From a virus, in the IMG/VR virus record IMGVR_UViG_3300037488_001994, positions 1 through 60,561 of that record: a DNA stretch of 60,561 nucleotides; one strand, 5' to 3'. Made by a program: the position numbers and the translations under genes. This document shows, piece by piece, positions 738 through 42,382 of the stretch. Below the pieces are notes generated by a model. The model searched no databases, had not been told where the DNA came from, and saw nothing but the letters and a program-made list of their open reading frames with translations. Every line of letters begins with the position of its first letter. Within the stretch, counting starts at the first letter, position 1.

Positions 738-3700
738 ATGGAACCTGTTGTCGATGTTAAAAAGAAAACCATTTCTGAATTTGCGGCCGACATTAAGAAA
801 AAATATCCCTTATACAAGGATGTTGACGATAATAAGTTGGCAACAGATTTCGTGGCTAAATTCCCTAAGTATAAGGAATTTGTTGATTTTGGAACAACGG
901 AACCGATAACGCCCCAGGCAGAACCGGCCCAAGTTGAATCAGCGGACACCACACAATCGGCGGTTACCGATACTACTCAACCGGAGGTTGCCTCACAAAC
1001 AGTACAACCAGCAGTTGCCGATACGACAAAAGTTGACGCACCGGAATTTTCTTCCGTAAAACCTTTGGGTCCGGTTAAAGAAAAAGGAAATGTATTGGAG
1101 GGATTTGGTACCGGATTTCAGAGAGATTGGGGAAATATTCAGAAAGGTGTTGGACAATTATCGGTTGATTTATCAGGGAAAGAGAATATAAACGCTACCG
1201 CCGAGGCTCTTAAAATAGGGTCGATATCACCGACAGAAGATTTTGCTAAACAAAAGGAGGCATACCAGGAAATATACGATGAAACTAAGGCCAATGGTGC
1301 TGAACTTGAAAAGGAATATCAGAAGATTGCCAGCCAGCATTTCAGCGTTTATGTTCGTGGAACAGATAACGACACGCGCGAAAAAATGGCCGAAGCCAAT
1401 AAGCAAAGGGCATTAGAGAAGTGGAGTAAGTTTCCGGAGTATCAGGAATACCAGGATAGGCTCAAACTGATATCTGAAAAGATCAGTCAGTATGGTACCC
1501 TGCAAAAAGAAAAAGAGGCTAAGACTATTCTTCCTGGTGGAAGTATGATGCCTATTCCTGTAACACAATTTGCCGAGAAAACATCCGAGGAGGCCGCAAA
1601 AAATATAACCGATCAGGCCGGTACAAAAAGTTGGGGTGAACAAGTTGTTGACAAGGGTGTAGAAGATATTGTTTCATCTGCCATGAAATCGGAAACCCAT
1701 GAGGGTTGGGGATTTAAGTTTGGAGAGAAAACGGCAACCATGTTACCACTTGTTGCGGCAATGGCCGCGAGAGCGATACCGGTTGTTGGTCCGGTAATAG
1801 GAGGCGCCCTGGGAACTGCCACAATGGGAGGATTTGTTCTTTCGGGAGCCGGCGGAATGGAATATGCCTATGAAGAGAATCAGAAGAAATTAGGGAAGCC
1901 TATTGATCCGGAAAGCAGAGCATTATACGGTATTGCTGGCGCATTGGCCATGTATATACCAATGGCCCTGGGATTCAAGTCGCTGGTACCCGACAAACTG
2001 ATGAATAAGTTTGTTGCAGAAACATTGCTTAAAGGAGGTTTTGAAAACGGAGGGAAAAAGGTTTTGGTTGATTTCGTGGCCAAAAATCCGGAGTTGGTTA
2101 AGCGTATGTTGAAGGATACCGGTGAATCAGCAATTACCGGAGGTACAATGATGGCCACTACAACCGAACTTAATATTGCCCTGGAGAATACATTCAGAGA
2201 GGGTGATGATAAGGTAGGATTATTGCAGGCACTAATTGAAGGTACCAAGTCCTTTGGTGCCGGTATTCTTATGGCTGGTTTGTTTGGCCCGGGAAAGACT
2301 TTGGCCACAAACTCAATGATGAAACAAATGAGGGCCAAGCGCGGAACAGTAACGCTGGCCACCGATGGCAATACCGGTGAAGTATTTGAGGTATTTGGGC
2401 AAGACAATGGTAATTTTACCGGATTCACCAGGACCGCACAATCAATTAGTGTTCCGGTAGATCAGGTTACCAATAAAATAACCATTCCTGTAAAATTGTT
2501 CAATGAGTTGGAGAAAACTGTTCCTAAAAATATCCAAGCCGCGAAGGATTTGGAAATGCAATTTTATAAGGATCAGGTAGATTCAAACCTTACAGAAGTA
2601 ATGAGGGGGATCACCAACGCAAATGGTGAAGTGACCAAAGGAAAATTACCGGATCAGTCTGATGTTATTCTTATCCAGGGTGAAATTGGTGTTGATACCA
2701 AGGTCAGGGTAGTGGATGGTATGGGTAATAAATCGTGGATTGATCCAGCCGAGTTGCACAATGTAGAGGTTATTCCGGCTGATGTATATGCCGAAGGACT
2801 GAGAAAGACCCAATATGACAGGATTGGTATTACTCAGGCGGAAAAAGATCAGGCGAAATTAGCGGCCTATGACGAGGCTGATGCCAAGGCCAGGGATTTC
2901 ACCACACTTATTCAAAGCCAGGATGATCCTGGATTTGCAGTCCGTACCACAAGTGTCGAAATGGTTGAAAATGCCGATGGAACTAAAACTCCGAAGGTAT
3001 GGTATATTCGATCCAGCAAAGTTGGACCCGATGGCAAGTCATTATTCGCGCTGGTGGATGCAGATGGTATAACCAAGATTACAACCGCCGAAAATCTGAC
3101 TCAACCGGAAATAATACCGCTGGATCAGATTCACCAAGAGGTATTAAAAGGTTTAACCACGGAGATTGATATTGCAAGTAAGGAGCCTACGGCCGATGTT
3201 TTTGGTTTTGAGGTTGGTAATAGGGTAACCGTCAATGGTGTATCCGGAGTTATTACCGATGCCAGCAGACCGGAGGACGGAATTGTTATTCGATCCAAAG
3301 ATGCCGATGGGTTAGAACAGGATATTTATGTGGAACCCAAGGATTATGGAACCATATTGCCGGAAGAAGTTGCACCGGCCGCACCTATGGCGGAAGCACC
3401 GCCAGCCGAAGTTGCACCAGCAGAAGTGCCACCGGTTGCGGAAGTACCACCGGTTGCAGAGCAAGCACCGGCCGTACCGGTAGAACCACCGCCACCGCCA
3501 AGACCTACCACCTGGGCCATTGGGAAAAAGAATTTCAATATTGAATATGACGATACCACCGGTAACAAATATATTCCCTTTACGGAGGGAACTGATGAAA
3601 CCGCGACTATTAAAAAAGAGGTTGACTTAACTCAGTATGATGTTGTTCCGAGGACCAAAGAAGTTAAGGCCCCTGGAGCGCCTGAGTTTGCCAAGCCTGT

Positions 3701-6700
3701 TAAAATCACATTAGGAGTTGACATTATCCCTAAAAAACAGAAAAATGAAACACCAAAAGCGCCCCTGCAAGGGAAAACCCCCGAAGAAGTAATTCCGCCG
3801 GTTACGCCGACAATGGTTACACCACCACCGGTTCCGCTGGTACCGGAAGTTGCCGGAAAACCTTCCAAAAAGGCCGTTCCTGTTAAGTATAAAGGAGCAG
3901 ACTATCTGATCGATGGTGAAAATGTATGGGTTGTTCCAAAGAAGGGAGAGCCTATGCTATATTCCACCACGCCGGAAGTCATTAAGGCCATGAAGGAAGA
4001 GGCCACAAAGGGTGAAGAAGACGATATTTCGTTCAATCCGGAAGATTGGGAAGTACCGCCGGCACCGCCGGCAGATAGCCAGGAATATAATAAATGGGTA
4101 TCCGAACACAGTACCGATCCTAAAGAGGTTTCCGCGGCTTATGAAACAGAAATGTTTAATAGGCCAATAAAGAAACTTGCTCCATGGCAAGAAAATTTCA
4201 TTGGCTCAAAGATTACTCAGAAATCGTGGAAACGGTTTGGTGATCCGAATTGGACCAGCCAGGGATTGGCCCAGGCATGGTTCTTAAAGGGTGACGAAAG
4301 AGATAATCGGGATGGAGATTTGGACGGTATTGCCCAGGAACTATCAGAGGATTTTGGAATGGAGATTACTCCTCAAATGCTGGTAGAATTTATCATGCAA
4401 TTCCCAAACAACAATCCAAGAAAGACCACGGATGTTCAAATGGCCCTTGCCAAAAGGTATAATAAATTAACCGGCACAAAAACATACGATGAAAGAACCG
4501 GAGAATTAAAGGCCGGATATGAACCATTAACTCCTGATGAAGAGGCCATTGCCTTAAATTTAGGTGACGATTTGCTGAATTTTTTAGATGAAAATAAAAT
4601 TGATTCAGTAGAATTATTGGATCAAATACGAGCAGAACATTTTTCAGAAACAAGTTTCCCATTTGGACCAAAAGATTATGAAAAATCAAGAACCCACCTC
4701 ACCAAAAAAGCCAACCGAAAGGCAGATAGCGGCATTTCGAAGACTGAAAAAGATGCAACAGATGAAGGAGGAGCAATCCCAGGAGAAGATGGCCAAGGAC
4801 CAGGCGAAGAAATAGGAGATATTTCCTTTAATCCTTCCGAATTTGCCGGAGAGAATATACCGGCAGGCAAAACCATTGACGGATTCAATTTCGTTCCAGA
4901 TGGAAGAGATATGCGCTTATCCAAGGAGTCACTTCCGCTGGCCATTGAGCATATCAAAAAGGTTGGGTTTGTCGGTGAGTTACCAACAGACACAACCGGA
5001 GGGCAGTTTTTACGGAAAATTTCTGAGGCCATTGTTAATTTTACCAAGGCCAGGGAATTTGGATTTACCAAGTACGAGTTTAATGATAGTGGCTGGAGTG
5101 ATTACAATTTGGAACAGGAGGAAATTCCTCTATTGACCAATAAACCTGGATGGGCATTAACCAACTATATCACCCTGGGTAAAGGCCCCAATGGTAAGTA
5201 TGCACAAGGTTTTTCCATGCACATAGGGAATGGTGGCTACGCTGGAGGACCGTCAATATTTGGTGAAATATATGACACCAGGGAACAAGCATTGGCCGGA
5301 GTTATTGCAGAAATGCGAAAAGGTGCAGAAAAAGAACTTGAAAAGGATGAAAGTGCAAGATCAAATGCGGAAGCAAAAAAAGTCCTTTCAGAACTTGATC
5401 GGATTGAAAGCGGAAAGCCAAGCGCACCAGCACCCAAGCAAGTAAAGGTAAAATTCACCGACAAACAGGCCGCGGATCACTTTGACAGGCTTGTTTCAGA
5501 CCTGGGGGAGAATGATGTTAATATTCTCCTTGATGGATGGGAAACAGGCGCACAACTTACCGAAGATGGTGAGATAACCATTGAGGGTAAATATCGGAGA
5601 GGAGCCGAGAAGGGTATGGGGGAATCAGAGAAAGGTTCAGTTAAGAAATTCATAACCTGGTTGCTGGATGAAAATGCCGATATGCCTTTCGATGAAAAAA
5701 CGATGGGCAAAGACATTGCCGATGATAGCGATTGGGCCGATGTTGTTGATCGGGCCAGGACCGCCGCCAAAGGAGAAACGGTTGTTCCGGCTATACCAAA
5801 AGACATGCAGAGGGATCATGATTTTCTTATCGAACAGAAAGCCATGATAGCAGAATCCATTTCCGAGGCCAAGGATACAGGGTTGACGGTTGAGGAGATT
5901 GATAAATTGAGGGGATTGAAAAAAAGGCTGGATGATATACAGTCCTATTTCAATGAGGCCATAAAAAATGGAACCGTTGCTGAATCAAAATGGAATGAGA
6001 TCAGCAAGATACAACAGGAGCATAACGATATTTATGAGCAGTTAGGCAAAGATTTTGAGGGCGTTGACGAAACCAAAATTGTTCCTACTGACATAAACAC
6101 CTTTATTGCTTCCGCGAAGTATGCAAATGAGGCCGGTAAAACCTTTGGTGAATGGTGGACCGCCGTAAGAGAGGAAATGAAAATTATTGCCACCGGCAGG
6201 GAAATGACCATGCCGAGTATGAATAACCTTGTCAATGCGACATTGAAGGGAGCCGGTTATGATGTGGCTAATGATTTATGGCAAGAAATTACCACCGGAG
6301 TCAAACACCAGCAGATCGTTGAAGACAAAAATAAATATCGGAAATCCAGGCAGAGTATCATTGATATGATAAATGCGGACCATAAGGAGCCAATGGCGCA
6401 ATATGTTCCGGAGGAAATTATTCAATCAGAAGTTGAAATTTCAAATAAGTTGCTTGATTTCTTTGAGAAGAACGGAATATCCTATGATTCACAAGATTCA
6501 AGAAGAGGACTTTATGGTGATTTGAGGGATAACACCAACGGCGGATTGCTTACCAGGCTGGCAATGGATATTAAGGCCGGCAACGAGGCACGAATAGCCG
6601 AGGATAAGGCCAAAATTGCCGAAAATACCGCAAGGTTTAATGAATTACTCAAACAGACCGAGCCGGAGTATAGCAATGCCAATGCGGAAAGATTAATGAA

Positions 6701-9700
6701 CGCGCAGGCTGAAAAAGATGCTCAATATTGGGATGGCATTAAGGTAGGCCAGGATGTAATAGTAAGTACCGGTGACCGTAAACTTCCAGGTAAAGTGTTG
6801 GATATTATTAAGCCTATTGATGAAGCCAAAGAAGATCGATGGAAGCGACAATATAAGGTTGAAGTAAACGGCCAGGCTATTTCTGTTAAAAGGAACGCCC
6901 TGGAACCTATCACACCGGCCCCCAAAGGTCAGATTATTGTCGGATCGCTACCCAAGATTGATTTTGTCACCCCACCGCCGGTATCAACCGGTCGAAAATT
7001 GACATTCAATAAGGCAAAAAAAGTAGAGCCAAACATTCCGTATCCTTTTGATCCTTCCATAAGGGTTGACAAATACACCATTGAGTATATGAGTGGGGCC
7101 GGCCATTATGAGAAAGTTTTCTATTTAAACACCGGCGCCAAGGCTGATTTTCCAAAATATGCCACCGAGGAAGAAATTGACAAGGTTAAGGATCAGGTTA
7201 CAGTACCGCCGGCCCAGGGGCGTACCCCCGAAATGCCCCCGATTGCCCCTGCAAGGAAGAAATTTAAGGTTGACACCACGAATAACGAGGAGATACAAAA
7301 GGCCAAGGATGATCTTAACAAACTGATCGGGAATAATGATGTTGAGTTGCGCGAACCGGTTGCCCCTTATGGTGAAAAAGATGCCAGGAAGATCATGTAT
7401 GCCGGCCTGCCGTATGCCTTTGAGTTGGCCAGCGTTATAGAGAGAGAAACCGGAGAGTTGATTTACGATGATTTTGCCCAGGCCATGGTTGACGAGTTTG
7501 GGAACAATATCAAACCGTATGTGAAGATGATGTATGAGGGTATCCGGAATGATCCTTCAAAAGAAAACACCAAGTTTAGCGACTACCCTTATGTTAAGTC
7601 ATTTGACATTAACAAATTACAACAGGATACGCAACCTGACGAGATAGAAATGCGTAAAGAGATTAACGACCTTAAAAATCAAGACGATGTTGGGAGTAAA
7701 TCAGGAGATATTACAGGAAATCGCCCGAACACAGGCGATGAAGTACCGGCTGACAAAACAAATATTCCAGGCCAACCAGGATCAAGTGAACACCTTCGAA
7801 GAGGCGCTGATACAGGAACAAGTGAAACAGTTGGGGCCAACCCTGCGGATCAAGAGTTCGCCGGAGGACTTCTTTTCCCAACTATGGAGCGTCCTACCCC
7901 TGCTCCTGGAGAACGAGGCAATAAGCCGGTTCGTACAGGCAAAGAACAGTCCGGCGCTCCGACAGGCTTTGCCGGAGATCGTATCACCGGAGGAGGCGGC
8001 ACAAGTAATATATTTGGACCATCGGACAGAGCAGAGGGAGTTGGCAGAGATGAAGAGGCTGATGCAGAAAATGATGAACACGCTGAAAAAGGCATAGACC
8101 TTGTAAGCCTAAAGGCCAAACAACAAGCCGTTGAGAAATCACCGGTTATTATGGGGGATATCGATAATATCCGCGAAACCCTGCCGGCCTTATTCCCACA
8201 ACAACATGACGATGTACTGAAAGCAGAAAAGAGGTTTTTCAGCGGTGCCGGCCCGAAAAATGCAATGGGCAAGGGAATGTTGTTTACCAATGGTACCGGA
8301 ACCGGAAAGACCTTTTCGGGAATGGGCATTGTAAAAAGAGCCATAAAGAATGGCGCCCAGGATATCCTAATCATAACTCCGAGTCAATCTTTGAACCGTA
8401 CCTGGATGAAGGTTGCAGGGATTTTGGGTGTTGACGCCGAGGTTCTTCCAAACACTTCAACCGCTGGTACCAAAAAGGTTGTGATTACCACTTATTCAAA
8501 CTTTAGAGGAAATGAAACCCTAAAGGATGTTGATTACGACTTGGTGATGTATGATGAAAGTCAGAACATTATGAGTGGCAAGAAAGGTGACGAGGTAAAA
8601 TCCGCGTTCCTTCATTATAAAATAACCAATCGGGATGCCGAGAGCGCGTTACTCAGATTAAAGGACCGTCACCCATTATGGATGGAACAGGCCGTTTTGA
8701 CTAACCGGTGGAACCATCTTAATAAACTTGTAAATACTTATAGGTCAGATAACCAGCAAAGGGATCGGGCAGAGATTGAACAGATACTCCAAAAGATTGA
8801 GGGTATAAAGGTTGAACAGGACAAGGTTATTTTCGCCATGACCGAGAGGGCAAAGGCTTCGGTTGACAAAACCAAGGTAGTTTTCCTTTCGGCCACGCCG
8901 TTTAACCAGCACAAGAGTTTACGGTATGCCAATAAATATATCTTCGATTGGGGTCCGGACAAGACGAGCCGAGGATATAATGAGCCGGATGCCGAGGGCC
9001 AATTCTTTGTTGACAACTTCGGGTACCGGATCAGATACAACAAACTTACCGCGCCGGAGATATCAGAGGCAGGAATGATGGGTGAATTGGAAATGACCTT
9101 TACCGAGAGGTTGCGCGAAAGCGGTGCATTGAGTGGCCGCGCGCTGGATAGCGACAAGGATTACTCCAGGGATTTTCCAATTATCGTGGGTGTGGATGCT
9201 GAACGCTACAATGCGGCAATATCTGACCTTCTTTCCCATAATGACGAGTTTAATGCGATCAGAAAATATGCTTCAGATGTTTTCTACAACTATGAGTATA
9301 GCACACAGTTGTTTGAATCCATGAAATCTACTCTTACGCTGGATCGTATTCAACAACATTTGGACCTGGGGCGCAAAGTTGTGGTATATCACCGCCGGCA
9401 CATGTCCAATGTATATCCGCCATTCCAAACCATTGAAATGAATTTGGAGGAGGCAAAAGGATCGATTGTGAACGGAATGCGCGTTGATACCAAGGATGCA
9501 GAGGCTCAATGGGAGGCATTCAAACAGAAATATCCGGACCTGATAGAATATGATAAAACGCTGGAGATTGATAGCGTTATCGATAAGATCACCGGAAGAT
9601 TTGGAAACAAAGTTGGATTACTTAATGGCCGCGTTCCTGACAAGATCAAAAAACGAAACATTGAGAACTTCAATAATGATGATAGCGGTATGGATATCTT

Positions 9701-12700
9701 TGTCATACAGGAGCAATCCGGTAAGGAAGGATTAAGCCTACATGATACCACCGGCAAGAAGCAAAGGGTACTGATAAACATGGCCCTGCCACAATCTTCC
9801 ATAACCACATTGCAGATTGAGGGCCGTATTTTCCGGATCGGAAATCAATCGAATGCTATTTTTGAATACCCGATACTTAACCTGGACCTGGAACTATACC
9901 TATTTGGCACCAAGTTTAACAAATTACTGAGTACAACCGAGAACCTGGCCATGGGCCGTTCATCCAGGGATTTAATCAGCAGTTTCCGTGATGGAGTTAT
10001 CTTCGGGAAGAACACCGATGCCCCAAGTATGGAGCAAGGAGCCGGAGGTAAAGATTTGGATGCAAGGCCAACCACCGTAACATCAAAATTCGATTTGGCC
10101 AAGGCAACCTATTTCACCAACCTAAGAAGGACCGCAAAAAATAAATCCAGGGAAGGAATTGACTATTACCCAACGCCGGAGCCGGTAGGTTTGGCAATGG
10201 TGAATTGGCTGAATCTTACCCAGGGTGAATCCATGCTGGAGCCGGAAGCCGGACACGGTGCAGTTGCTATGTGGGCGCCGAGCAATGTTATTATGAAAGC
10301 CGTTGAGCCAAGTTACGAACTGTTTACCAAGTTGGAGGTTCGCGCTGGTGGAGTTGGCCGGTTCCTGTTCAATCAGACCTTTGAGAGTTACAATACGATC
10401 AACAAGTTTCATGGTATTGCCATGAATCCGCCTTATGGTTCCGGAGGGAAAACTGCCATGGACCATTTCGAAAAGGCATTGAAACACCTTAAAAACGGTG
10501 GCCGAGTAGTGGCCATTGTTCCCAACGGTCCATCCATGGATAAACGGATGGACAAATTCATGGACGAGAAAGACGAGGATGGAAACTATGTAAACGCCAA
10601 TTACCATGTGATTGCAGAAGTCATTCTACCATCCGTCACCTTTGAGAGAGCCGGTACCGCAGTTAATACCAAAATTCTTGTTATTGATAAGGTTGTTCCG
10701 CCGAAAGTTAAATCCCTTGAAAAGATACGCGAGGAGATAAAGACGGCAGATACCCAGGCCTTAATGAGTAGCAGGTGGCATGTAATGTTGACGCCGGAAC
10801 AAGTAAAGGCCGAGGCTCAAAACCGGTATGAAATGGCCCTGGCAACACAGGCCGCGATAGATATTCAGCCTACCCGACAGATCGATTTGAGTTACATAAC
10901 TGATATCAATGAACTGTTTCAAAGCATTAATGATATCGGAATGCCTGACCGGATAAGATTTGAGAAAACACCGGAAGAAGTTGCGGAAGAAACACCGGTC
11001 GCTCCAGCCGGAGGAGGCCTTTTGGAGAATGAATATAAGGTTCAGAACGATCCGTATTCCGGTGAACCAAGGGAAATGGTTTTGCTTAAAAAGCGGTTAC
11101 CGAAGGATGTTTACCGCATGGTGGCAACCAAGGCCGCTGAGATTGGATACCCAAGGAATTACAATCAGAACAAAGGTGGCGGATTTAGGCCTGGGTTTAT
11201 GTTCCAAACGAAAGAAAAAGCCTTAGAGTTTAAGTCATGGCTTGATAATTACCAATTTGCCCAAGAATCGGCAGTTGCCTACAAGGTTGGGAAAACCTAC
11301 TTAACACTTTTGGACAATGCAACACCGGAAACTTTATCTGAAATCAATCGTGCTTACGGAAGCAAAGAGGCGGCGATTACGGCAGTTGAGAAAACTGTTG
11401 AACAAGCCAGGCAACTTGTCCTTGATTTTTCCGGACGAGTCAGAGGTTCCATACCAAAAGGCGTTCACAAAAGATCAGTCATTGAAGACTTCCAAGAGTC
11501 CGGATATGTAGATTTTGTCGGACGAAAATTCAATGGTTCCCAGGATATTGCCGACATGTGGAGTATCCACCGGTCACCATACATTGAGAAGAGCCATGCG
11601 ATATTCACCAAGAACCAAACTATTGTTGGATCATTGGCAATAACCGTAAACAATCAGTCCGCGGTTCAATTACCCGATGCAGGGTTGATTGCGAAAGCCT
11701 TAAAGGTTTTTGGAGCCGATGGGTTTGCCCTGGTGCATAATCATCCTTCCGGTAATTCTGTTCCAAGCGAGAACGATGTAACGGCAACCAAAATTCTATT
11801 GGGTCGTTTACAAAACAGTCCTATCAATTTTTGGGGCCATGTTGTTATAAATCATGGAACATACTCCTTTATCGATGGGAACGGTGGGGTTGTGAATGAT
11901 TTGAAATATTCAACACCGGTACCGAGTTTATATAAACCAAGGGCCGATATTAAAGACCCTTTGACCGGTAAGGGGAGTCCTGAGAAAATGGGAGAGATTG
12001 GCCGGTCGTTGCTAAACGCAGAAGGGTACCAGGCGGCGGTTGTGTTCCTGTCTATGAAAATGGATATTAACGCTTATGAACAGTTGCCGGTTACCACGCA
12101 CAATGAAATGTTTGATTTCATTGAGAGAAGGATGGGCGGAAAACAACCATTGGGATCAGCCTTTGTTATTATCCACGATGGTTCCGATCAGTCAAACGCC
12201 ATTTTCGGAAAATATAGTTCCTGGCCATCCGGCGCGAGGGATATCATTAATGCCGAAACCGGCATAAGTAATGATTTTGATGAAAGCAATATCGAAATAG
12301 GCAGAAGGACCAATCCGGAAGTTTTATGGGTTGAAGAGGGCCGAGTAGATTACACAGACCTTTCTCCAGCCAACCGGAATAAGATTGCCATTAAATCAGC
12401 CGAATTTGACGCCAAGATTTCCGGTATCAATAAGGAATTAGGCCGGATCAAGAGGGAAATTGAAACCAAAAAGGGTACCCTTTCGAATATTCAGACTTCC
12501 CAGGGCGATTTGTTTGCCGGAAATGTGTTTGGAGCGCCGGAACCTGTGGCCCCGAAACGCGGTGAATTTGCTGGAAGTTTCTTTGATGTGGCTCCGGATG
12601 CTTCTGACGCCAATGTTCAAAGGTTAATCCAGCCTTTACAGAATCAGTTAAAAAGGTTATCCGATGATCTTCTATACACCATGCGTTCAAAAGAGGCCTG

Positions 12701-15700
12701 GATAGATGAATTTGTCAAAAGTATCAGGGATCAGGGTAAATTATTTGAGCCAGGAACACAGTACGGTAAAAAAGTGAGCCACGATTTGGCTGATGAATAT
12801 AGCCGGCTGGTGGATGTTCCCATGAAGGATGCCGTAACCGAGTTAATGCGCGAATATGGTTCCAGCAGATCAGAGATATCCAAGGCCGTTGGAGGAATAG
12901 CAGTCCGTCCAAGAAACGCCGAACTGCCTGCCAGGGATTTCATGCTTTACCATGAGAGCCGGTTGGGTAAATCGATTGAGCAGATTAACGCTGAAACCGG
13001 CGCTGGCTGGAATGAAATTCTGAAAGCCAGGGAAGACGCCACCGAATACATTAAGGCCCATCCGGAACGCAAGCCACTTTACAAGGCAACAGAATTAACC
13101 AATAAGGGCATAAACGCACATTCCTACGAGTCTTCAATCTATGAACTGCAAACCTTATCGAATATTACCGATAGGATGCAGGCCATTGAGGAGCAGTTGT
13201 CCAAAAATGGATTTAGGGTCCGGCCAGCATTGGGAATGGAACCTGGTAATGTTTTCTATACAGGCAAGGAAAATGATGCTCCATTTACTGAACTTGACGA
13301 ATCGTTGATACAGGAGTACATGGAACTTGATTTCATGGCCAAGCGCGATCCGAGGGTAATGGATGGAGATTATTTTGAGCGTCCAATATTGCAAGGGAAC
13401 CAGGGCGAGATAAGATTGGCCGGTAACCGGTTATTGAATGAGCAAATAAGGCATTCCCTGGAGGATGTGAATAAAGGCATTATCAATGGTCCGTACATTG
13501 AGGTTTATGAAAGGAACGATGATATACCCGAACACATAAGGAACGAAAACCCCGACATTGCTAATCCGGCTTTTTATTACGGCAATACGGTTTATTTTAT
13601 CCTTGAAAACATTGCCAATGCCGAGTCTGCCATTAAGGATTACATTCATGAGGTTGGTGTCCATTATGGCATTCACAATGTTATTCCACGGCCATTGTTT
13701 GATACCACCATGAGGTTAATTGTGGCGGATATCGGGAAGGATGCTATTAAGGCCACCATGACTGAGGGAGGCTGGTTAGGCGTTGTTGGTGATGATGTGG
13801 CCATGGGTGAAGAATATTTGGCCTACCTGAGTGCGAAGATCGGTGCCGAGAAAGATTTGACGCCGAAGGAACAGGGTATATGGGATAAGATCATTCAAAC
13901 CATACTTGATTTCTTCCGCAAAATATTCAAATTGGGCGGAAAGATCACAAAGGCTGATTGTGAAAACATAGTGCATGCCGCGGTTCAATCCACCAGGCAG
14001 GCGAAAATGAATGTTGGGCATACCGACAACAGATTCTTTGCCGTTGATACCGCTGGGAAAACCTATGTTGAGAGCAAATTAGGCACAACCGGAGTTATCC
14101 ACCATAACAACCAACGGCTTGAATTTAACACCCTGGGGAACTATTATGCTGATGGATTACAAAAGTTGGCTCACGACATTAAGAATGGGAACAAGGAATC
14201 CATACAAAAAGCCGCAAAAAAATTGTTGCCCATAATTCCCAAGAACTCAATTATTGTTCCTATTCCATCCAGGTCCGGTAATGCAACCACAACATTAATG
14301 TTAGCCGAGGAGATTGCCAAACTGAGGGATGATGTTTCGGTAAGCGATATTTTGAGGGGATCGGAACGGCCATCACTTTATGAGGCCAAGAGAAACGGAA
14401 CACCTTTGGGGATATCCGACATGGGAATAACATTATCATCCAATCCGCCGGCTGGTAAACAATTAATTCTTTTAGATAATGTAATCGATACCGGTACTAC
14501 GGCAATGGCGGCAAATAGCGTATTACCAAACGCTACGCTTGTTGCGATTGCTTCTTCAAACAAACCCAATTCAGTAGTCAGACAAAAAACCGTTTCCAAA
14601 GGACTGAGAACCCATACCCAGGGCGTTAAGTGGACCGGCTTCATTGATCCTGTTGACCTGGATTGGAAGGATAAAGTAAGGAAGGGGTTACAGGACAAGG
14701 AACTTCCACTTCTCCGGTTCCAGGAAAAGGTTAAGGCCGAGGGCGGTATTATCAGAAAGTTAAATGATATTCATGATATGCTACCCAAAAACCGGTCCAA
14801 AAACAGGACTATGGTTGAGGATTTTGAGGTTGAGTTAGGAAAACCGATGCTCAAAGCGATAGCCGATATTCAGATTGCCAATGGCATTGAGTATGATGAA
14901 GTTACTGACTACCTTTACGCAAAAGAGGCATTAAACAGGAATATCAGGATAAGCGCCGAAAAAAAGAAGAGTGAAATTATCAATTACTCCGGTATGGAGC
15001 AAGCGGAGGCGCAGGCCATTGTGGACAAATTCGAACTTGATGTTTCCGATACCCTTGTTTCATCATTGAATGAGAAGGTCCGGCAGGCAACAGATTTTGC
15101 GGTGCGTACCTGGAGGGATGCCGGCTTTACTTCAAAAGAGGATTATGAAATGTACCGAGAGCGCGACAAGAACTATGTTCCTTTGCGCGGTTGGGAAGAT
15201 TTGCAGGCAGATGATGTGTATAATTTCCTAAATGCAGACATGGATCATGCCTTTAATCCAGCATTGCTGAGAGCAAAAGGAAGAAAATCAAAAGCCGATG
15301 ATCCGATACCATATATATATAGTATGGCTCACACGGCAGTTGTGGCAGGCAATAAGAATTTAGCCAAAAGGATGCTTCTCCGGATCGCCAGGGATAATTA
15401 CCAAAAATACCCACACCTGATAAACTTCAAAAAGGTTTATGAGGTACAAGTTACCGATCCGTCAGGGAATGTTTCATGGCTGGAAACAGTTGACCGGCCG
15501 GATCAACAGTTATTTGATGATAAGAAAGCCAGGACGAAAATGTTCCGGAAGTACGGTGAGCGCGCTACGGCCCGACAGAAAGAACAGTTTGAGGTTGAGG
15601 TATGGGAAAATGGTGAAAAGTATGTTGTTATCATTGATCCACAAGTAGCCAATGTTCTTAACGGAAACGAGTCACACTTAGGTTGGTTAATGGGTAAGAT

Positions 15701-17510
15701 TTCCAACGCAACCAGGGTGTGGTCAGCATTAACCACCAGCAAAAACCCGATGTTCGTTTTACCGAACATTCTCCGTGACGGTCAGTTTGGGTTGGTGAGC
15801 GTAAATATTCAGTTTGGGATTAAACCGGTGAAACTTGCCAATGGCAAAACCGATATTCCTGGTAACCTTTATCGCAGATATTATAGTGATGCAAGCAAAG
15901 CAATCCGCCGGTGGCAAACTGAAAAGTTTGATCCTAATAATCCGCTGGATGTTGAGTTTAAGCATTGGAGAGATATGGGCGGTCCTACCGGTTTTGTTTA
16001 CATGCAGGGGATTGAGAAAATCCGTAAGCAGGTTTATCGGGATATAAATGAAATGAAATCGTTGGGAAAGGTTGGGAATGTTAAGGACTATATCGCCAAG
16101 GGGATGAAGATTATTGGTGATGCCACAACTAACCTGGCCGAATGGTCTGAATTATTGGCAAGATTTTCCGCCTATAAAGTTGGGAAGGATATGAGCCTTT
16201 CCGATTCAGAGGCAGTTACCTTATCCAAGGAGATAACCACGAACTTTGATAGAAGTGGCGAATGGAGCAGAACCATAAATGCTGGTTGGGCATTCTTTAA
16301 CGCCAGGTCACAGGGTATTGATCGGTATTTCAAATTGTTTGGAATAAACAAGGGCCGGTTCGCCGCCTGGAACGCCGCCATGTTTGCCACCGGTGAACTG
16401 TTAAGCATGCTTTTGGATTGGTTTTATGGTGACGATAAGGACGAGGATGGGGTTAAGAAATATGACAAATTCTCTTCCTTCCTACGCCGTGGATACATAA
16501 TGATCCCAATTCCAGGTACCGATAAGACAATCAGTATTCCGAACATGCACGGATTTGGGGCATTCTTTACCCTGGGCGCCATTGGTTATGAAATGGCCAC
16601 CGGCAGAACCACGATCCCGACAGGGGTAATGGCTTCGCTGGACTCTTTCTCCAACAGTTTCCTTCCTATTGATATGGGAAGTATCGTTAAAGCCGATGGT
16701 GGAGTTACCCTGGGGCCGTTATTGCCAACATTATTGGTTCCTGTATGGGCGCTGAACGCAAACAAGAACTTTGCCAATCAGATAATCTATAAAGAACCGT
16801 TCACCGCTAATCAGGATATTGCCAGCAGTCAGTTGTATTTGAAAAATGTGAACTCAACTATCCGGAGAGGAACGGACGCGCTATTTAAGTTGGGAGGAGG
16901 AGATACCGCAACCAAGCATTTGTATTACGATAAGAACGGCGTGGAGAAAAAGGTACCCTGGCTGATGGATTGGAACCCTTCAAAAATTGAATATCTTTTG
17001 GAGTATTACACTTCCGGAGCCGGTCAATTCTATAATAAACTGTTCAAGTCAACCATTGAACCGCTTATTGATATGAGTACCAGGGCCGCGGAGGATGGTG
17101 TGAACAAGGGTACTGCCTTATGGTATAACTACCGAGATTTGGTTAAGGAACACCCAAGCGATATCCCTGTTCTCAATAGGTTCATCCGGAAAGCAACCGG
17201 CAATCCGATAAGGCAACAGTATTTCGATCAGAGGGGTCGTTTTGACCGCTATCTGCATGAGTTTAATGAAACCATTGAGGTTGGTAATGATACCGATAAG
17301 ATCATGCGGATGGCCCGACAGAAGGAGTTTCCTAACGATACCATACCGAAGTACGAAAAAGCACTTATCTTTAAGGCTAATCAATCGGTCGTTGACGAAT
17401 ATTACGATGCCATGAACCTACCTGGTTTGTCCAAGGATACAGTTAAGTATTTCGAAAAGTTGATAAAGGACAAGCAAAAAGAAATGATTAATTTCAAAGA
17501 AAGAAAATAG
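738..17510 (+). CDS. Giant polyvalent protein (5590 aa): helicase, N6-adenine methyltransferase, RadC/JAB, zincin-like, PRTase
   Basis: One uninterrupted frame of 5590 codons. Domains in order: an N-terminal KYP-type helical motif (residues 10-50); hydrophobic segments (about 333-370 and 395-413); a Pro/Ala/Val-rich linker (about 875-926); an SF2/SNF2-like helicase with Walker A GTGTGKT (2519-2525), DESQ (2606-2609), SAT (2718-2720) and motif VI QIEGRIFRIG (from 3026); an N6-adenine methyltransferase with LEPEAGHG (3167-3174) and NPPYG (3230-3234); a RadC-type JAB domain with HNHPSGN (3667-3673); a zincin-like HEVGVHYG (4304-4311); a phosphoribosyltransferase with IVPIPSRSG and LLDNVIDTGTT (D4580, D4584); and a C-terminal NPMFVLPNILRD...IPIPGTDK domain (about 4960-5330) typical of phage polyvalent proteins. 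Helicase plus methyltransferase resembles P1 DarB, an injected anti-restriction protein. Ejection with the DNA is inferred from family knowledge and from the position beside the portal. Disordered linkers separate the domains. Confidence 0.9.
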   Translation: MEPVVDVKKKTISEFAADIKKKYPLYKDVDDNKLATDFVAKFPKYKEFVDFGTTEPITPQAEPAQVESADTTQSAVTDTTQPEVASQTVQPAVADTTKVDAPEFSSVKPLGPVKEKGNVLEGFGTGFQRDWGNIQKGVGQLSVDLSGKENINATAEALKIGSISPTEDFAKQKEAYQEIYDETKANGAELEKEYQKIASQHFSVYVRGTDNDTREKMAEANKQRALEKWSKFPEYQEYQDRLKLISEKISQYGTLQKEKEAKTILPGGSMMPIPVTQFAEKTSEEAAKNITDQAGTKSWGEQVVDKGVEDIVSSAMKSETHEGWGFKFGEKTATMLPLVAAMAARAIPVVGPVIGGALGTATMGGFVLSGAGGMEYAYEENQKKLGKPIDPESRALYGIAGALAMYIPMALGFKSLVPDKLMNKFVAETLLKGGFENGGKKVLVDFVAKNPELVKRMLKDTGESAITGGTMMATTTELNIALENTFREGDDKVGLLQALIEGTKSFGAGILMAGLFGPGKTLATNSMMKQMRAKRGTVTLATDGNTGEVFEVFGQDNGNFTGFTRTAQSISVPVDQVTNKITIPVKLFNELEKTVPKNIQAAKDLEMQFYKDQVDSNLTEVMRGITNANGEVTKGKLPDQSDVILIQGEIGVDTKVRVVDGMGNKSWIDPAELHNVEVIPADVYAEGLRKTQYDRIGITQAEKDQAKLAAYDEADAKARDFTTLIQSQDDPGFAVRTTSVEMVENADGTKTPKVWYIRSSKVGPDGKSLFALVDADGITKITTAENLTQPEIIPLDQIHQEVLKGLTTEIDIASKEPTADVFGFEVGNRVTVNGVSGVITDASRPEDGIVIRSKDADGLEQDIYVEPKDYGTILPEEVAPAAPMAEAPPAEVAPAEVPPVAEVPPVAEQAPAVPVEPPPPPRPTTWAIGKKNFNIEYDDTTGNKYIPFTEGTDETATIKKEVDLTQYDVVPRTKEVKAPGAPEFAKPVKITLGVDIIPKKQKNETPKAPLQGKTPEEVIPPVTPTMVTPPPVPLVPEVAGKPSKKAVPVKYKGADYLIDGENVWVVPKKGEPMLYSTTPEVIKAMKEEATKGEEDDISFNPEDWEVPPAPPADSQEYNKWVSEHSTDPKEVSAAYETEMFNRPIKKLAPWQENFIGSKITQKSWKRFGDPNWTSQGLAQAWFLKGDERDNRDGDLDGIAQELSEDFGMEITPQMLVEFIMQFPNNNPRKTTDVQMALAKRYNKLTGTKTYDERTGELKAGYEPLTPDEEAIALNLGDDLLNFLDENKIDSVELLDQIRAEHFSETSFPFGPKDYEKSRTHLTKKANRKADSGISKTEKDATDEGGAIPGEDGQGPGEEIGDISFNPSEFAGENIPAGKTIDGFNFVPDGRDMRLSKESLPLAIEHIKKVGFVGELPTDTTGGQFLRKISEAIVNFTKAREFGFTKYEFNDSGWSDYNLEQEEIPLLTNKPGWALTNYITLGKGPNGKYAQGFSMHIGNGGYAGGPSIFGEIYDTREQALAGVIAEMRKGAEKELEKDESARSNAEAKKVLSELDRIESGKPSAPAPKQVKVKFTDKQAADHFDRLVSDLGENDVNILLDGWETGAQLTEDGEITIEGKYRRGAEKGMGESEKGSVKKFITWLLDENADMPFDEKTMGKDIADDSDWADVVDRARTAAKGETVVPAIPKDMQRDHDFLIEQKAMIAESISEAKDTGLTVEEIDKLRGLKKRLDDIQSYFNEAIKNGTVAESKWNEISKIQQEHNDIYEQLGKDFEGVDETKIVPTDINTFIASAKYANEAGKTFGEWWTAVREEMKIIATGREMTMPSMNNLVNATLKGAGYDVANDLWQEITTGVKHQQIVEDKNKYRKSRQSIIDMINADHKEPMAQYVPEEIIQSEVEISNKLLDFFEKNGISYDSQDSRRGLYGDLRDNTNGGLLTRLAMDIKAGNEARIAEDKAKIAENTARFNELLKQTEPEYSNANAERLMNAQAEKDAQYWDGIKVGQDVIVSTGDRKLPGKVLDIIKPIDEAKEDRWKRQYKVEVNGQAISVKRNALEPITPAPKGQIIVGSLPKIDFVTPPPVSTGRKLTFNKAKKVEPNIPYPFDPSIRVDKYTIEYMSGAGHYEKVFYLNTGAKADFPKYATEEEIDKVKDQVTVPPAQGRTPEMPPIAPARKKFKVDTTNNEEIQKAKDDLNKLIGNNDVELREPVAPYGEKDARKIMYAGLPYAFELASVIERETGELIYDDFAQAMVDEFGNNIKPYVKMMYEGIRNDPSKENTKFSDYPYVKSFDINKLQQDTQPDEIEMRKEINDLKNQDDVGSKSGDITGNRPNTGDEVPADKTNIPGQPGSSEHLRRGADTGTSETVGANPADQEFAGGLLFPTMERPTPAPGERGNKPVRTGKEQSGAPTGFAGDRITGGGGTSNIFGPSDRAEGVGRDEEADAENDEHAEKGIDLVSLKAKQQAVEKSPVIMGDIDNIRETLPALFPQQHDDVLKAEKRFFSGAGPKNAMGKGMLFTNGTGTGKTFSGMGIVKRAIKNGAQDILIITPSQSLNRTWMKVAGILGVDAEVLPNTSTAGTKKVVITTYSNFRGNETLKDVDYDLVMYDESQNIMSGKKGDEVKSAFLHYKITNRDAESALLRLKDRHPLWMEQAVLTNRWNHLNKLVNTYRSDNQQRDRAEIEQILQKIEGIKVEQDKVIFAMTERAKASVDKTKVVFLSATPFNQHKSLRYANKYIFDWGPDKTSRGYNEPDAEGQFFVDNFGYRIRYNKLTAPEISEAGMMGELEMTFTERLRESGALSGRALDSDKDYSRDFPIIVGVDAERYNAAISDLLSHNDEFNAIRKYASDVFYNYEYSTQLFESMKSTLTLDRIQQHLDLGRKVVVYHRRHMSNVYPPFQTIEMNLEEAKGSIVNGMRVDTKDAEAQWEAFKQKYPDLIEYDKTLEIDSVIDKITGRFGNKVGLLNGRVPDKIKKRNIENFNNDDSGMDIFVIQEQSGKEGLSLHDTTGKKQRVLINMALPQSSITTLQIEGRIFRIGNQSNAIFEYPILNLDLELYLFGTKFNKLLSTTENLAMGRSSRDLISSFRDGVIFGKNTDAPSMEQGAGGKDLDARPTTVTSKFDLAKATYFTNLRRTAKNKSREGIDYYPTPEPVGLAMVNWLNLTQGESMLEPEAGHGAVAMWAPSNVIMKAVEPSYELFTKLEVRAGGVGRFLFNQTFESYNTINKFHGIAMNPPYGSGGKTAMDHFEKALKHLKNGGRVVAIVPNGPSMDKRMDKFMDEKDEDGNYVNANYHVIAEVILPSVTFERAGTAVNTKILVIDKVVPPKVKSLEKIREEIKTADTQALMSSRWHVMLTPEQVKAEAQNRYEMALATQAAIDIQPTRQIDLSYITDINELFQSINDIGMPDRIRFEKTPEEVAEETPVAPAGGGLLENEYKVQNDPYSGEPREMVLLKKRLPKDVYRMVATKAAEIGYPRNYNQNKGGGFRPGFMFQTKEKALEFKSWLDNYQFAQESAVAYKVGKTYLTLLDNATPETLSEINRAYGSKEAAITAVEKTVEQARQLVLDFSGRVRGSIPKGVHKRSVIEDFQESGYVDFVGRKFNGSQDIADMWSIHRSPYIEKSHAIFTKNQTIVGSLAITVNNQSAVQLPDAGLIAKALKVFGADGFALVHNHPSGNSVPSENDVTATKILLGRLQNSPINFWGHVVINHGTYSFIDGNGGVVNDLKYSTPVPSLYKPRADIKDPLTGKGSPEKMGEIGRSLLNAEGYQAAVVFLSMKMDINAYEQLPVTTHNEMFDFIERRMGGKQPLGSAFVIIHDGSDQSNAIFGKYSSWPSGARDIINAETGISNDFDESNIEIGRRTNPEVLWVEEGRVDYTDLSPANRNKIAIKSAEFDAKISGINKELGRIKREIETKKGTLSNIQTSQGDLFAGNVFGAPEPVAPKRGEFAGSFFDVAPDASDANVQRLIQPLQNQLKRLSDDLLYTMRSKEAWIDEFVKSIRDQGKLFEPGTQYGKKVSHDLADEYSRLVDVPMKDAVTELMREYGSSRSEISKAVGGIAVRPRNAELPARDFMLYHESRLGKSIEQINAETGAGWNEILKAREDATEYIKAHPERKPLYKATELTNKGINAHSYESSIYELQTLSNITDRMQAIEEQLSKNGFRVRPALGMEPGNVFYTGKENDAPFTELDESLIQEYMELDFMAKRDPRVMDGDYFERPILQGNQGEIRLAGNRLLNEQIRHSLEDVNKGIINGPYIEVYERNDDIPEHIRNENPDIANPAFYYGNTVYFILENIANAESAIKDYIHEVGVHYGIHNVIPRPLFDTTMRLIVADIGKDAIKATMTEGGWLGVVGDDVAMGEEYLAYLSAKIGAEKDLTPKEQGIWDKIIQTILDFFRKIFKLGGKITKADCENIVHAAVQSTRQAKMNVGHTDNRFFAVDTAGKTYVESKLGTTGVIHHNNQRLEFNTLGNYYADGLQKLAHDIKNGNKESIQKAAKKLLPIIPKNSIIVPIPSRSGNATTTLMLAEEIAKLRDDVSVSDILRGSERPSLYEAKRNGTPLGISDMGITLSSNPPAGKQLILLDNVIDTGTTAMAANSVLPNATLVAIASSNKPNSVVRQKTVSKGLRTHTQGVKWTGFIDPVDLDWKDKVRKGLQDKELPLLRFQEKVKAEGGIIRKLNDIHDMLPKNRSKNRTMVEDFEVELGKPMLKAIADIQIANGIEYDEVTDYLYAKEALNRNIRISAEKKKSEIINYSGMEQAEAQAIVDKFELDVSDTLVSSLNEKVRQATDFAVRTWRDAGFTSKEDYEMYRERDKNYVPLRGWEDLQADDVYNFLNADMDHAFNPALLRAKGRKSKADDPIPYIYSMAHTAVVAGNKNLAKRMLLRIARDNYQKYPHLINFKKVYEVQVTDPSGNVSWLETVDRPDQQLFDDKKARTKMFRKYGERATARQKEQFEVEVWENGEKYVVIIDPQVANVLNGNESHLGWLMGKISNATRVWSALTTSKNPMFVLPNILRDGQFGLVSVNIQFGIKPVKLANGKTDIPGNLYRRYYSDASKAIRRWQTEKFDPNNPLDVEFKHWRDMGGPTGFVYMQGIEKIRKQVYRDINEMKSLGKVGNVKDYIAKGMKIIGDATTNLAEWSELLARFSAYKVGKDMSLSDSEAVTLSKEITTNFDRSGEWSRTINAGWAFFNARSQGIDRYFKLFGINKGRFAAWNAAMFATGELLSMLLDWFYGDDKDEDGVKKYDKFSSFLRRGYIMIPIPGTDKTISIPNMHGFGAFFTLGAIGYEMATGRTTIPTGVMASLDSFSNSFLPIDMGSIVKADGGVTLGPLLPTLLVPVWALNANKNFANQIIYKEPFTANQDIASSQLYLKNVNSTIRRGTDALFKLGGGDTATKHLYYDKNGVEKKVPWLMDWNPSKIEYLLEYYTSGAGQFYNKLFKSTIEPLIDMSTRAAEDGVNKGTALWYNYRDLVKEHPSDIPVLNRFIRKATGNPIRQQYFDQRGRFDRYLHEFNETIEVGNDTDKIMRMARQKEFPNDTIPKYEKALIFKANQSVVDEYYDAMNLPGLSKDTVKYFEKLIKDKQKEMINFKERK
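4678..4815 (+). CDS. Possible overprinted 45-aa helical protein inside the polyvalent gene
   Basis: In the +1 frame relative to the polyvalent gene, an ATG at 4678 opens 45 codons ending in TAG. The product is lysine/glutamine/glutamate-rich and predicted helical (PTERQIAAFRRLKKMQQMKE). The polyvalent frame over the same bases is a low-complexity linker (residues about 1314-1360, rich in G, D, E, K). The hidden frame therefore looks more protein-like than the main one here. No strong ribosome-binding site is visible. It could be an overlapping gene, a relic of compensating frameshifts, or chance. Confidence 0.3.
   Translation: MKNQEPTSPKKPTERQIAAFRRLKKMQQMKEEQSQEKMAKDQAKK
7687..8097 (+). CDS. 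Possible overprinted 136-aa protein inside the polyvalent gene
   Basis: In the +1 frame relative to the polyvalent gene, ATG 7687 opens 136 codons ending in TAG. The product has the composition of a folded, mostly helical protein (SSPEDFFSQLWSVLPLLLEN; AEMKRLMQKMMNTLKKA at the C-terminus) and uses many CTG, CAG and GAG codons. Over the same bases the polyvalent frame (residues about 2317-2453) is a Gly/Pro/Thr/Asp-rich linker just before the helicase. The last upstream stop in the hidden frame is at 7645. No clear ribosome-binding site is seen. A true overlapping gene or an ancient frame switch are both possible; the family is unknown. Confidence 0.42.
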   Translation: MLGVNQEILQEIARTQAMKYRLTKQIFQANQDQVNTFEEALIQEQVKQLGPTLRIKSSPEDFFSQLWSVLPLLLENEAISRFVQAKNSPALRQALPEIVSPEEAAQVIYLDHRTEQRELAEMKRLMQKMMNTLKKA

Positions 17511-17512
17511 CC

Positions 17513-19546
17513 ATGATACTAAGTACCAATTTCTCACCCAACATGTTCACCAAGGAGATTGTTGGAGGAAAAAAAACAAAGATCAAGCGGACAGATATCA
17601 AATATCTGCTTGAATCAACTTCCGAGAACACAGACCTACTGTTCCGGTGCCAAGCCTGGTATGATAGCATGTCTGATTTTCGAAGGAGAAGGGTCCGGAA
17701 CCGGAAATATCTTCGCGGTGACCAATGGCATGAAACAATGATCGATCCAGCCACCAGGGAAACGGTAACCGAGGAAACCTATATCAGCAACCAGGGTAAA
17801 ATTCCGCTGAAACAGAACCTTATGCGTCAGTTGGAAAAGAACCTGATGGGTCAATTCCGTACCAACCCACTAAAATCCATCATTATAGCACGATCCAGGC
17901 ATAATGCAAAGATCAGCGAAATGATGAGTATTGCCCTGGAGAGTGTTGGGGATTCAAATAAGAGCCTTGAACTTGATGTAAGAAACTTTGAGGAGTTTGT
18001 TATGTCAGGGATGGCCATTGGGAAAACGGTGTGGAAATACATTCCCAAGAGAAACCGGAAGGATATTTTCAATGAGAATATTAACCCAAACACCATTTTC
18101 TTCAATACCGATGTTACGGATATCCGCCTTACAGACCTTTGCCTGATCGGGCAGATACTTGATGTTACCCAGGATGAAATTATCGCCACTTTCGCCAAGA
18201 ATCCAGGTGACGAGGCAAAGATCAAAACCTGGTACAATACTTCATACAAAGACCTAATCAATGGGAATGGCTTATCGTCCGACCGTATGGACCTTATGGA
18301 TTTCTTTATTCCCAATGACGGTAATAAGTGCAGGGTGTTTGAGATATGGGAAAAGAAATATGAATGGCGCCTGTATGTTCACGATCCGATGGATGGTTCC
18401 TACCAGGTGATGAAAAAAGATCAGAAAAATATTTTGGCCCAGGTAAATGTTGAGCGAGTGAAGTTTATGGAAATGAATGATATTGCGGAGGAGGATTACG
18501 AAAACTATTTGCTGGATATTGAGGATAAAATGGAACCCTATTGGAACCAAAAATTCCTAACCCCAATGGGTCAAACCTTATATGAGGGAGAAACCACCTA
18601 CGCTCACGAAGAACACCCTTATTCCATTGTCCTTTATCCGTTGATTGACGGTGAAGTTTGGGGATTGCTGGAGGATGTTATCGATCAGCAGAGGTATATT
18701 AACCGGTTGATAAGCCTATTGGACTTCATTATGGGCGCCGCCGCCAAAGGCGTTCTCCTGGTGCCGGAAGATGCTATTCATCCTGAGTTTGATTTAGCCA
18801 GCATTGCCAATGAGTGGAGCAAGTTTAACGGCGTTATCAAAATTAAAAGTTTGAAGCAGGGAGCGCAGATGCCCCAACAGATCAGCGCGAACCTTACCAA
18901 TATCGGAGCGCACGAAATGATAGGCATTCAAATGAAACTGATGCAAGAGATTTTCGGTGTTTCACCGGCCATGCAGGGCCAGCGCGCAACTTCCGGAACT
19001 CCATCATCCCTGTACGCACAAGAGGCCCAAAATTCCACGATAAACAGTAAGGATATCATGGATTTCTATTCCTGGTACATTGAGCAGAGAGATTACAAAG
19101 TGATGAAGTTGATCGTTCAATTCTACAAGGAAGAGCGTTACATTAATGTTGCCGGGTCCAATTATGCCGAGGAATCCAAAATGTTCCGTCCGGAGTTGGT
19201 TAAGGATGTTGACCTGGAGTTAAAGGTTGCCAAGGGCCAGGATACACCGGTTTACCGGCAGATGATCGATGATTTACTATTCAAACTGTTAGACCTACAA
19301 CAGATTGATATACAAATGTTCCTTGAAAATACGAGCCTACCATTCGCAGACAAGTTGCTGGAAACCATTAAGTCGCGTCAGGAACAGTTGGCACAAGGCC
19401 AGGTACCGCAAGGAGGATTACCGCCGGAACTTATGGCCGCCATGCAACAACAGGCCGGAGCCGGAACGCCGGAAGGTCAGCCGGCCATGTCACCTCAGAC
19501 TGAGCGAGTTATGAATACCTTACTTGCCAACGCCAGGAATAATTAA
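17513..19546 (+). CDS. Portal protein
   Basis: This 677-residue protein should form the dodecameric ring at the unique capsid vertex through which DNA is packaged and ejected. It shows the usual layout: a basic N-terminal helical part with a YLRGDQWHE segment, then KIPLKQNLMRQLEKNLMGQF, a central clip and stem region, and a Gln/Pro/Gly-rich C-terminal tail (AAMQQQAGAGTPEGQP). Length and motifs fit portals of short-tailed phages of Bacteroidota. It starts 2 bp after the polyvalent gene stop, so the two are probably co-transcribed. It lies some 30 kb from the terminase and capsid genes, an unusual separation. A run of eight A residues near codon 20 is the only oddity. Confidence 0.85.
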   Translation: MILSTNFSPNMFTKEIVGGKKTKIKRTDIKYLLESTSENTDLLFRCQAWYDSMSDFRRRRVRNRKYLRGDQWHETMIDPATRETVTEETYISNQGKIPLKQNLMRQLEKNLMGQFRTNPLKSIIIARSRHNAKISEMMSIALESVGDSNKSLELDVRNFEEFVMSGMAIGKTVWKYIPKRNRKDIFNENINPNTIFFNTDVTDIRLTDLCLIGQILDVTQDEIIATFAKNPGDEAKIKTWYNTSYKDLINGNGLSSDRMDLMDFFIPNDGNKCRVFEIWEKKYEWRLYVHDPMDGSYQVMKKDQKNILAQVNVERVKFMEMNDIAEEDYENYLLDIEDKMEPYWNQKFLTPMGQTLYEGETTYAHEEHPYSIVLYPLIDGEVWGLLEDVIDQQRYINRLISLLDFIMGAAAKGVLLVPEDAIHPEFDLASIANEWSKFNGVIKIKSLKQGAQMPQQISANLTNIGAHEMIGIQMKLMQEIFGVSPAMQGQRATSGTPSSLYAQEAQNSTINSKDIMDFYSWYIEQRDYKVMKLIVQFYKEERYINVAGSNYAEESKMFRPELVKDVDLELKVAKGQDTPVYRQMIDDLLFKLLDLQQIDIQMFLENTSLPFADKLLETIKSRQEQLAQGQVPQGGLPPELMAAMQQQAGAGTPEGQPAMSPQTERVMNTLLANARNN

Positions 19547-36971: not shown

Positions 36972-37595
36972 TTATGGTATTAAGTTATCATCGGCCATGC
37001 TCATGTATCCGGCATCACTTAAAATAATGTGATCCAGCATTGTAATATCCAGCAACTTACAAGACTCTTTAAGTTTGCCGGTAATCTTTATATCTGCTTC
37101 GCTGGCTGACAGATTGCCGGATGGATGGTTATGCGCCACAATTAAACCGCTGGCCAACAATTTGACTGCATGGTTTAAGATGATCCGGATATCGGTAACT
37201 GTTCCGGAGATACCGCCCTCGGATATCCTTACAATTTTCAGCACTTGGTTGGAACGATCACAATACATGGCCCAAAATTCTTCATGATCCAGGTCCGAAA
37301 GGTTTGTTTCGGATTCCAGCAATTTCCAGGCGTCCTGACTGCAACGGATTTTAGCCTTTGGTTTTTTTGCCTCGTATTTCATTCTCCTGGCAATTTCAAC
37401 CACGGCCAAAATTTTACCGGCCTTTGCTTCTCCGATCCCAGGAACTTGGCAAAGGTCTTCGATTGTCAGCCGGCCAACATTGGATAACTGCCGGTCGGCC
37501 ATTTTCAAAACTTCATTTGCTTGTGGTTCCGAATCACATACCATGCTCAAAAGGTCGCGGTCGTTCATCTGATTGAAATAAATTTGCTTTTTCAT
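36972..37595 (-). CDS. radC: RadC family JAB-domain protein
   Basis: This 207-residue protein has the RadC layout: a helix-hairpin-helix (VPGIGEAKAGKI, residues 51-62) followed by a JAB/MPN+ metalloprotease-like domain with AHNHPSGN (H155, H157) and D168 in ASEADI. RadC proteins are common on mobile elements; a role in DNA repair is disputed, and the fold is that of a zinc isopeptidase. A second RadC-like domain lies inside the giant polyvalent protein. Confidence 0.88.
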   Translation of the reverse strand: MKKQIYFNQMNDRDLLSMVCDSEPQANEVLKMADRQLSNVGRLTIEDLCQVPGIGEAKAGKILAVVEIARRMKYEAKKPKAKIRCSQDAWKLLESETNLSDLDHEEFWAMYCDRSNQVLKIVRISEGGISGTVTDIRIILNHAVKLLASGLIVAHNHPSGNLSASEADIKITGKLKESCKLLDITMLDHIILSDAGYMSMADDNLIP

Positions 37596-42149: not shown

Positions 42150-42208
42150 GTTGAATCTGACTTTCTGCAATTTTTTTGGGATAAAAAAGGTGATTTTATG
42201 CGAAGGTA

Positions 42209-42340: not shown

Positions 42341-42382
42341 AATTTTTTTGGATCAGAAAGGTGTTGGAATGGCGAAGGTAAA

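Follow-up and report, generated by a model that had tools for sequence, protein, structure and literature searches.

The window analysed here, a single 60,561-base virus contig from IMG/VR, carries on its plus strand at 738..17510 the gene for a polyvalent protein of 5590 amino acids (aa). The frame is uninterrupted over all 5590 codons, a run without a stop that has a probability of ~10^-153 in random sequence of matching composition, and the GC content by codon position is gene-like from end to end; the preliminary description of one ~17-kb frame encoding 5590 residues was therefore correct. Its origin in a single IMG/VR contig, for which no near-identical second assembly was found, could raise the suspicion that assembly or fusion has joined several genes artificially, but we regard this as extremely improbable and rejected it, since the open frame and its codon-position GC are joined by two comparisons: the same blocks run colinearly through a single frame of at least 4895 aa in a related IMG/VR locus (L007), and the syntenic Bacteroides-phage genes are of full size (5391 and 5553 aa). 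The extreme size claimed for the protein, by comparison, did not stand. Frames of up to 6003 aa occur among 103 complete relatives from the fetched phage and IMG/VR loci, and when placed among these the 5590-aa protein ranks third of 104 by length; it is large, and its size is not extreme for the polyvalent class.

In this tailed phage the giant gene directly precedes the portal gene. The portal protein gene (17513..19546, plus strand; phrog_156, E = 1.7e-61; 34% identical to the BS-TP4 portal) starts 2 nt past the stop codon of the giant gene, and the record also contains the large terminase gene (48936..50915, minus strand; phrog_24361, E = 6.8e-9; 38% identity to its syntenic BS-TP4 counterpart across 686 columns) and the major capsid protein gene (52305..53678, plus strand; phrog_1328 major head protein, E = 1.9e-6; syntenic in relatives). 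The window and its relatives show synteny for the portal, terminase and capsid genes, and in 68 of the 78 pairings in which a portal was recognised it was found no more than 150 nt downstream of the giant gene. A late-gene position, as would fit virion packaging, is supported by the adjacent portal and by the terminase and capsid genes that the record also holds. Those named relatives that come closest belong to Bacteroides phages or to Bacteroidales prophages, most of the prophage relatives sitting in Bacteroidales genomes, and the host is therefore probably a member of the Bacteroidota; no tyrosine integrase was found in the 60,561-base record. Portal and terminase are separated by ~29 kb in the window, a stretch that holds genes for recombination and replication and sugar genes, and mostly by ~0.4-2 kb in the syntenic relatives. 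A minus-strand cluster at 40906-49029 encodes a UDP-GlcNAc 2-epimerase, a Stealth_CR2-like protein, a methyltransferase and a protein that weakly matches a glycosyltransferase, and possibly serves the modification of surface polysaccharide. At 56642-59653 on the plus strand there is a gene for a 1003-aa protein with four 153-nt repeats of ~70% identity, and the protein that follows has PKD-like as well as LRR-like matches and runs off the end of the record.

The 5590-aa protein belongs to a known class, the phage-type polyvalent proteins, the logic of which was laid out by Iyer et al. 2017 (PMC5512222). Membership of the class is marked by at least two biochemically unrelated domains in one polypeptide, here helicase, MTase, RadC, zincin-like, PRTase and LPD38 domains; by a late or virion neighbourhood with a portal-terminase packaging system, as described above; and by a phage-only LPD domain, here LPD38 with a score above cut-off, which the same authors list as phage-only and, when fused, as typical of phage-type polyvalent proteins. 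Both the reading as a polyvalent protein and the count of five enzyme-like domains (SF2 helicase, N6-adenine MTase, RadC/JAB, zincin-like HEXXXH and PRTase) were confirmed, the former by the domain content together with LPD38. The mix had also been called rare, which is an overstatement given that all five domain types are already catalogued for polyvalent proteins (PMC5512222); the combination is unusual and not a new kind. From profile matches and motifs, we consider the helicase, MTase, RadC and LPD38 assignments secure. The protein departs from published descriptions in two respects. Firstly, the MTase of polyvalent proteins is described as nearly always followed by the helicase (Iyer et al., PMC5512222), whereas the helicase came first in all 90 of the 90 frames that matched both profiles, the window protein included. 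Secondly, RadC is listed only for the polyvalent proteins of conjugative elements, a tendency and not a defining trait (Iyer et al., PMC5512222), yet here it stands in a phage-type protein alongside LPD38, and it is also present in several other relatives that bear the phage C-terminal module. The class is widely annotated and hardly tested, and the 5590-aa protein is an unusually complete member of it.

Residues 2480-3045 (8175..9872, plus strand) form an SF2 (ResIII/SNF2-like) helicase or translocase, with Pfam matches to ResIII at 2512-2622 (E = 1.9e-5) and Helicase_C at ~2942-3035 (E = 3e-4) and with Walker A GTGTGKT at 2519-2525, DES at 2606, SATP at 2718 and motif VI QIEGRIFR at 3026. 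The gamma-class N6-adenine DNA MTase follows at residues 3120-3340 (10095..10757, plus strand), where DNA-methyltransferase families in the PHROG search cover ~3125-3340; its motifs are TP (T3146-P3147) and NPPY (3230-3233), with TP and NPP present in 4/4 aligned members. By direct reading the catalytic motifs of helicase and MTase are intact, and the motif residues of this dyad are invariant across divergent members. A single-sequence search of IMG/VR with the helicase-MTase segment as query returned no match, and alignments were required to reach the relatives.

The pair had been compared with DarB of phage P1, an antirestriction protein that acts in cis against type I restriction, and the comparison survives in part. 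DarB resides in the phage head and carries a packaging signal at its N-terminus (PMC9024508). DarB likewise combines an N6-adenine MTase with an SF2/SNF2 helicase, its gene adjoins the portal gene, and its MTase is homologous, as the MTase profile of the present family finds DarB residues 91-284 at E = 1.1e-9. The domain order, however, is reversed in DarB (MTase at 91-290, then helicase at 833-1517), and the helicase profile of the window family did not match DarB at E <= 10, although both helicases are SF2 by Pfam. We therefore rejected the plain label of DarB homologue; the zincin, RadC and C-terminal profiles did not match P1 DarB either.

Downstream of the dyad, residues 3584-3715 (11487..11882, plus strand) hold a RadC-type JAB domain. 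Pfam RadC matches at 3650-3712 (E = 3.1e-9), the NCBIfam family radc (E = 3.5e-9) and a PHROG RadC family match as well, and the residues HNHPSG at 3667-3672, S3677 and D3680 reproduce the JAB pattern HxHPSG...S..D. The match to PDB sequence 2qlc (E = 2.3e-4) made RadC the only part of the protein with a meaningful match in the PDB sequence searches. An attack on host defence components had been proposed for this JAB region, but the RadC clade of JAB domains is considered unlikely to hold a ubiquitin tail (PMC5512222); because the domain falls in that clade, an attack on CBASS or ubiquitin-like conjugation is unsupported and we rejected it. The phage carries a second RadC in a separate gene of 207 aa with an HhH motif (36972-37595, minus strand; Pfam RadC, E = 7.6e-37), which is 35% identical over 57 aa to the RadC of the giant protein.

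The PRTase domain, residues 4455-4625 (14100..14612, plus strand; PRPP loop LILLDNVIDTGTT), is more weakly supported: PRK09177 matches at E = 6.7e-5 and PADLOC ShosT at E = 6.5e-5, the Pfam PRTase match is below cut-off (E = 0.0078), and the AF2 model is poor over this part (pLDDT mostly <60). A Teredinibacter plasmid PRTase is nevertheless 38% identical to the segment (E = 1e-19). A PRPP-binding loop is expected to show an acidic pair and TG[TS]; in LLDNVIDTGTT, near residue 4577, D-N replaces the D-D of classical enzymes, and D-N also appears in an alignment of the Treponema, Prevotella and Rctr197k phage PRTase relatives. A search for the loop in 235 large related frames recovered that of the window protein alone. 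Plasmids encode the nearest PRTase relatives (Treponema pTRESU01, Prevotella pE2-28 and Teredinibacter Bs12_MP), which have a D-N-V or D-G-V loop in common; one of them adjoins ArdC, LPD16 and SNF2 genes, and unlike the window gene they sit in a plasmid setting with no portal or LPD38 annotated nearby. An exchange of cargo between plasmid-type and phage-type polyvalent proteins can reasonably be inferred, and RadC and PRTase alike would probably act on nucleic acids or nucleotides.

The zincin-like metallopeptidase domain, residues 4254-4412 (13497..13973, plus strand), precedes the PRTase and belongs to a conserved family of 83 domain matches. The zincin-like assignment draws on this family; HEVGVH at 4304-4309 is HEXXXH rather than HEXXH, a variant that has been described for some polyvalent-protein peptidases (Iyer et al., PMC5512222). 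In the family alignment (A3) H180 is near-invariant and E181, H185 and E235 are invariant, E235 (residue 4359, on model helix 229-245) providing the second metal-binding Glu. AF2 modelling of residues 4125-4645 gave a pLDDT of ~90 over the zincin-like part, and a Foldseek comparison of this zincin-PRTase model with the PDB yielded nothing at E <= 0.001, only chance matches. The domain was found in 43 of 93 complete C-terminal relatives, so that either the protein can do without it or divergence often hides it from detection. In L007, the closest relative, there are two zincin-like copies, at L007:6963-7625 and L007:11100-11720, flanking RadC.

The last part of the protein, residues 4648-5590 (14679..17507, plus strand), is a conserved module to which ~105 frames align and which includes the LPD38 domain at residues 5240-5439 (16455..17054, plus strand; Pfam PF18857, E = 1.2e-16 in the protein and 5.1e-20 in the window's own record). 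An AF2 model of residues 4641-5590 built with 58 related sequences reached a pLDDT of 84.1 and a pTM of 0.81; Foldseek found no match to it in the PDB, and 85 viral predictions in BFVD matched at E <= 1e-3, many of them named as LPD38 or large polyvalent proteins and one of them a prediction from Escherichia phage PTXU04 (TM 0.58). Similarity to relatives falls in two blocks, the helicase-MTase block (~2240-3400; ~88 frames) and the C-terminal module (~4640-5590; ~105 frames), most of the remaining protein having 0-4 matching relatives. All counts among the fetched relatives carry a bias from the modules used as queries and from the 10-kb fetch limit. Scanned pieces of residues 560-2240 gave no Pfam family above cut-off. 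Near the N-terminus, a hydrophobic Gly/Ala-rich segment at residues 330-415 (1725..1982, plus strand), with hydropathy peaks at 333-356 and 395-413, is conserved in loci L007, L087, L010 and L008. As judged by sequence comparison, RadC, the PRTase and other enzymes are swappable cargo, while the dyad and the final ~950 residues are widespread.

Named relatives illustrate this turnover. BS-TP4 gp3 (5391 aa) and BKO1-TP3 gp55 (5553 aa) lie in the same gene order as here (polyvalent protein, portal, minus-strand terminase, capsid) and share the zincin-like domain and the C-terminal module with the window protein, although the module is only 24% identical to that of the window. The cargo of BKO1-TP3, whose giant gene is annotated 'DarB-like antirestriction', is different (ddrB-ParB, InPase and SNF2 helicase), with no match to the MTase or RadC profile; a relative in Ruegeria phage 45A6 carries GNAT as cargo. 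Among the fetched frames, those of the window, L007 and L089 alone combine all of helicase, MTase, RadC, zincin-like domain and C-terminal module, the latter two being IMG/VR loci (at least 4895 and at least 4245 aa, with 5' ends cut by the record or the fetch limit) that, unlike the window protein, are without the PRTase loop.

Taken together, the protein is probably a virion-packaged delivery chassis with a cargo of counter-defence enzymes that is co-injected with the DNA, that is, a polyvalent protein of two layers. The chassis layer would comprise, probably, the hydrophobic N-terminal region, the zincin-like HEXXXH domain and the ~950-residue C-terminal LPD38 module; it would be built into the virion beside the portal, serve assembly or ejection, and leave with the DNA. 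The cargo layer would consist of exchangeable enzymes set between the chassis parts. Upon entry the HEXXXH domain probably cleaves the chain into working pieces, freeing the cargo, and the helicase-MTase dyad would translocate on the incoming duplex and methylate adenines ahead of host restriction enzymes, an anti-restriction role modelled on the DarB precedent and on the proposal in PMC5512222. RadC and PRTase activity on nucleic acid or nucleotides would complete the set. Enzyme activity is judged here by motifs, and self-cleavage, methylation of the entering DNA, any RadC or PRTase activity and the timing of these steps are predictions.

Packaging and ejection of the window protein are suggested by the fact that homologues of two of its parts are found in virions, P1 DarB for the MTase and Burkholderia phage JC1 gp69 for the C-terminal module (E = 2.4e-121). 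JC1 gp69, a homologue of Bcep22 gp75, is a giant DarB-like protein with LPD38 that is virion-associated by mass spectrometry (PMC9144972); it differs from the window protein in having the MTase before the helicase, transglycosylase-like and LPD3 domains, no RadC, and a zincin-like copy without the HEXXXH motif. The presence of these two homologues in virions, the well-kept position beside the portal and the listing of fused LPD38 as typical of phage-type polyvalent proteins make it very unlikely that the protein is instead a restriction-avoidance or takeover factor made late in the infected cell and never injected, even though late synthesis would allow an MTase to modify progeny DNA before it is packaged.

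A second homologue of the chassis, Escherichia phage PTXU04 gp25, is a protein of 2197 aa that, among the domain profiles built in this analysis, is matched only by those of the HEXXXH domain (E = 1.2e-19) and the C-terminal module (E = 6.8e-42), the helicase, MTase and RadC profiles finding no match; its knockdown strongly reduced plating (PMC11879866), and the same study reports that expressing gp25 was toxic or disturbed infection. By homology, then, the chassis is tied both to a protein detected in virions and to one needed for normal plating. That gp25 is needed without matches to the MTase, helicase or RadC profiles could be read as a sign that the giant protein works mainly in structure or ejection, as an inner core or conduit in which most of the cargo rides as passengers of minor or lost activity, and the C-terminal module as the most widely conserved part, the hydrophobic N-terminal segment and the transglycosylase-like domain of the JC1 version agree with such a role. 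We consider this unlikely, though less so than the non-virion alternative, because the helicase, MTase and RadC catalytic motifs are intact and the cargo turns over as whole domains; in addition, the intact motifs and the invariance of the dyad motif residues in divergent members argue for selection on activity. The reading as a delivery chassis with active cargo is therefore preferred, and it usefully separates a conserved chassis from variable enzymatic cargo, making testable the idea of one delivery module that carries interchangeable counter-defence enzymes in the particle. More tentatively, and with somewhat less than even confidence, we propose that the HEXXXH domain and the ~950-residue LPD38 module constitute an ejection chassis of general use that had not been defined before and whose fold has no PDB counterpart. 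Phages of Bacteroidota and of Proteobacteria would share it; it would in its own right be required for infection, and it would serve as a swappable delivery platform for grafted enzymes, including the RadC and PRTase otherwise typical of conjugative plasmids.

At the extreme N-terminus, residues 8-52 (759..893, plus strand) contain a doubled KYPxYxD / KFPxYxxF motif. Among 119 large frames, 7, that of the window included, have the doubled KYPxYxD motif within their first 120 aa, compared with 0.5% of background stretches of 120 aa, and the motif is also N-terminal in relatives that include two Prolixibacteraceae prophages; it is a candidate targeting or packaging tag.
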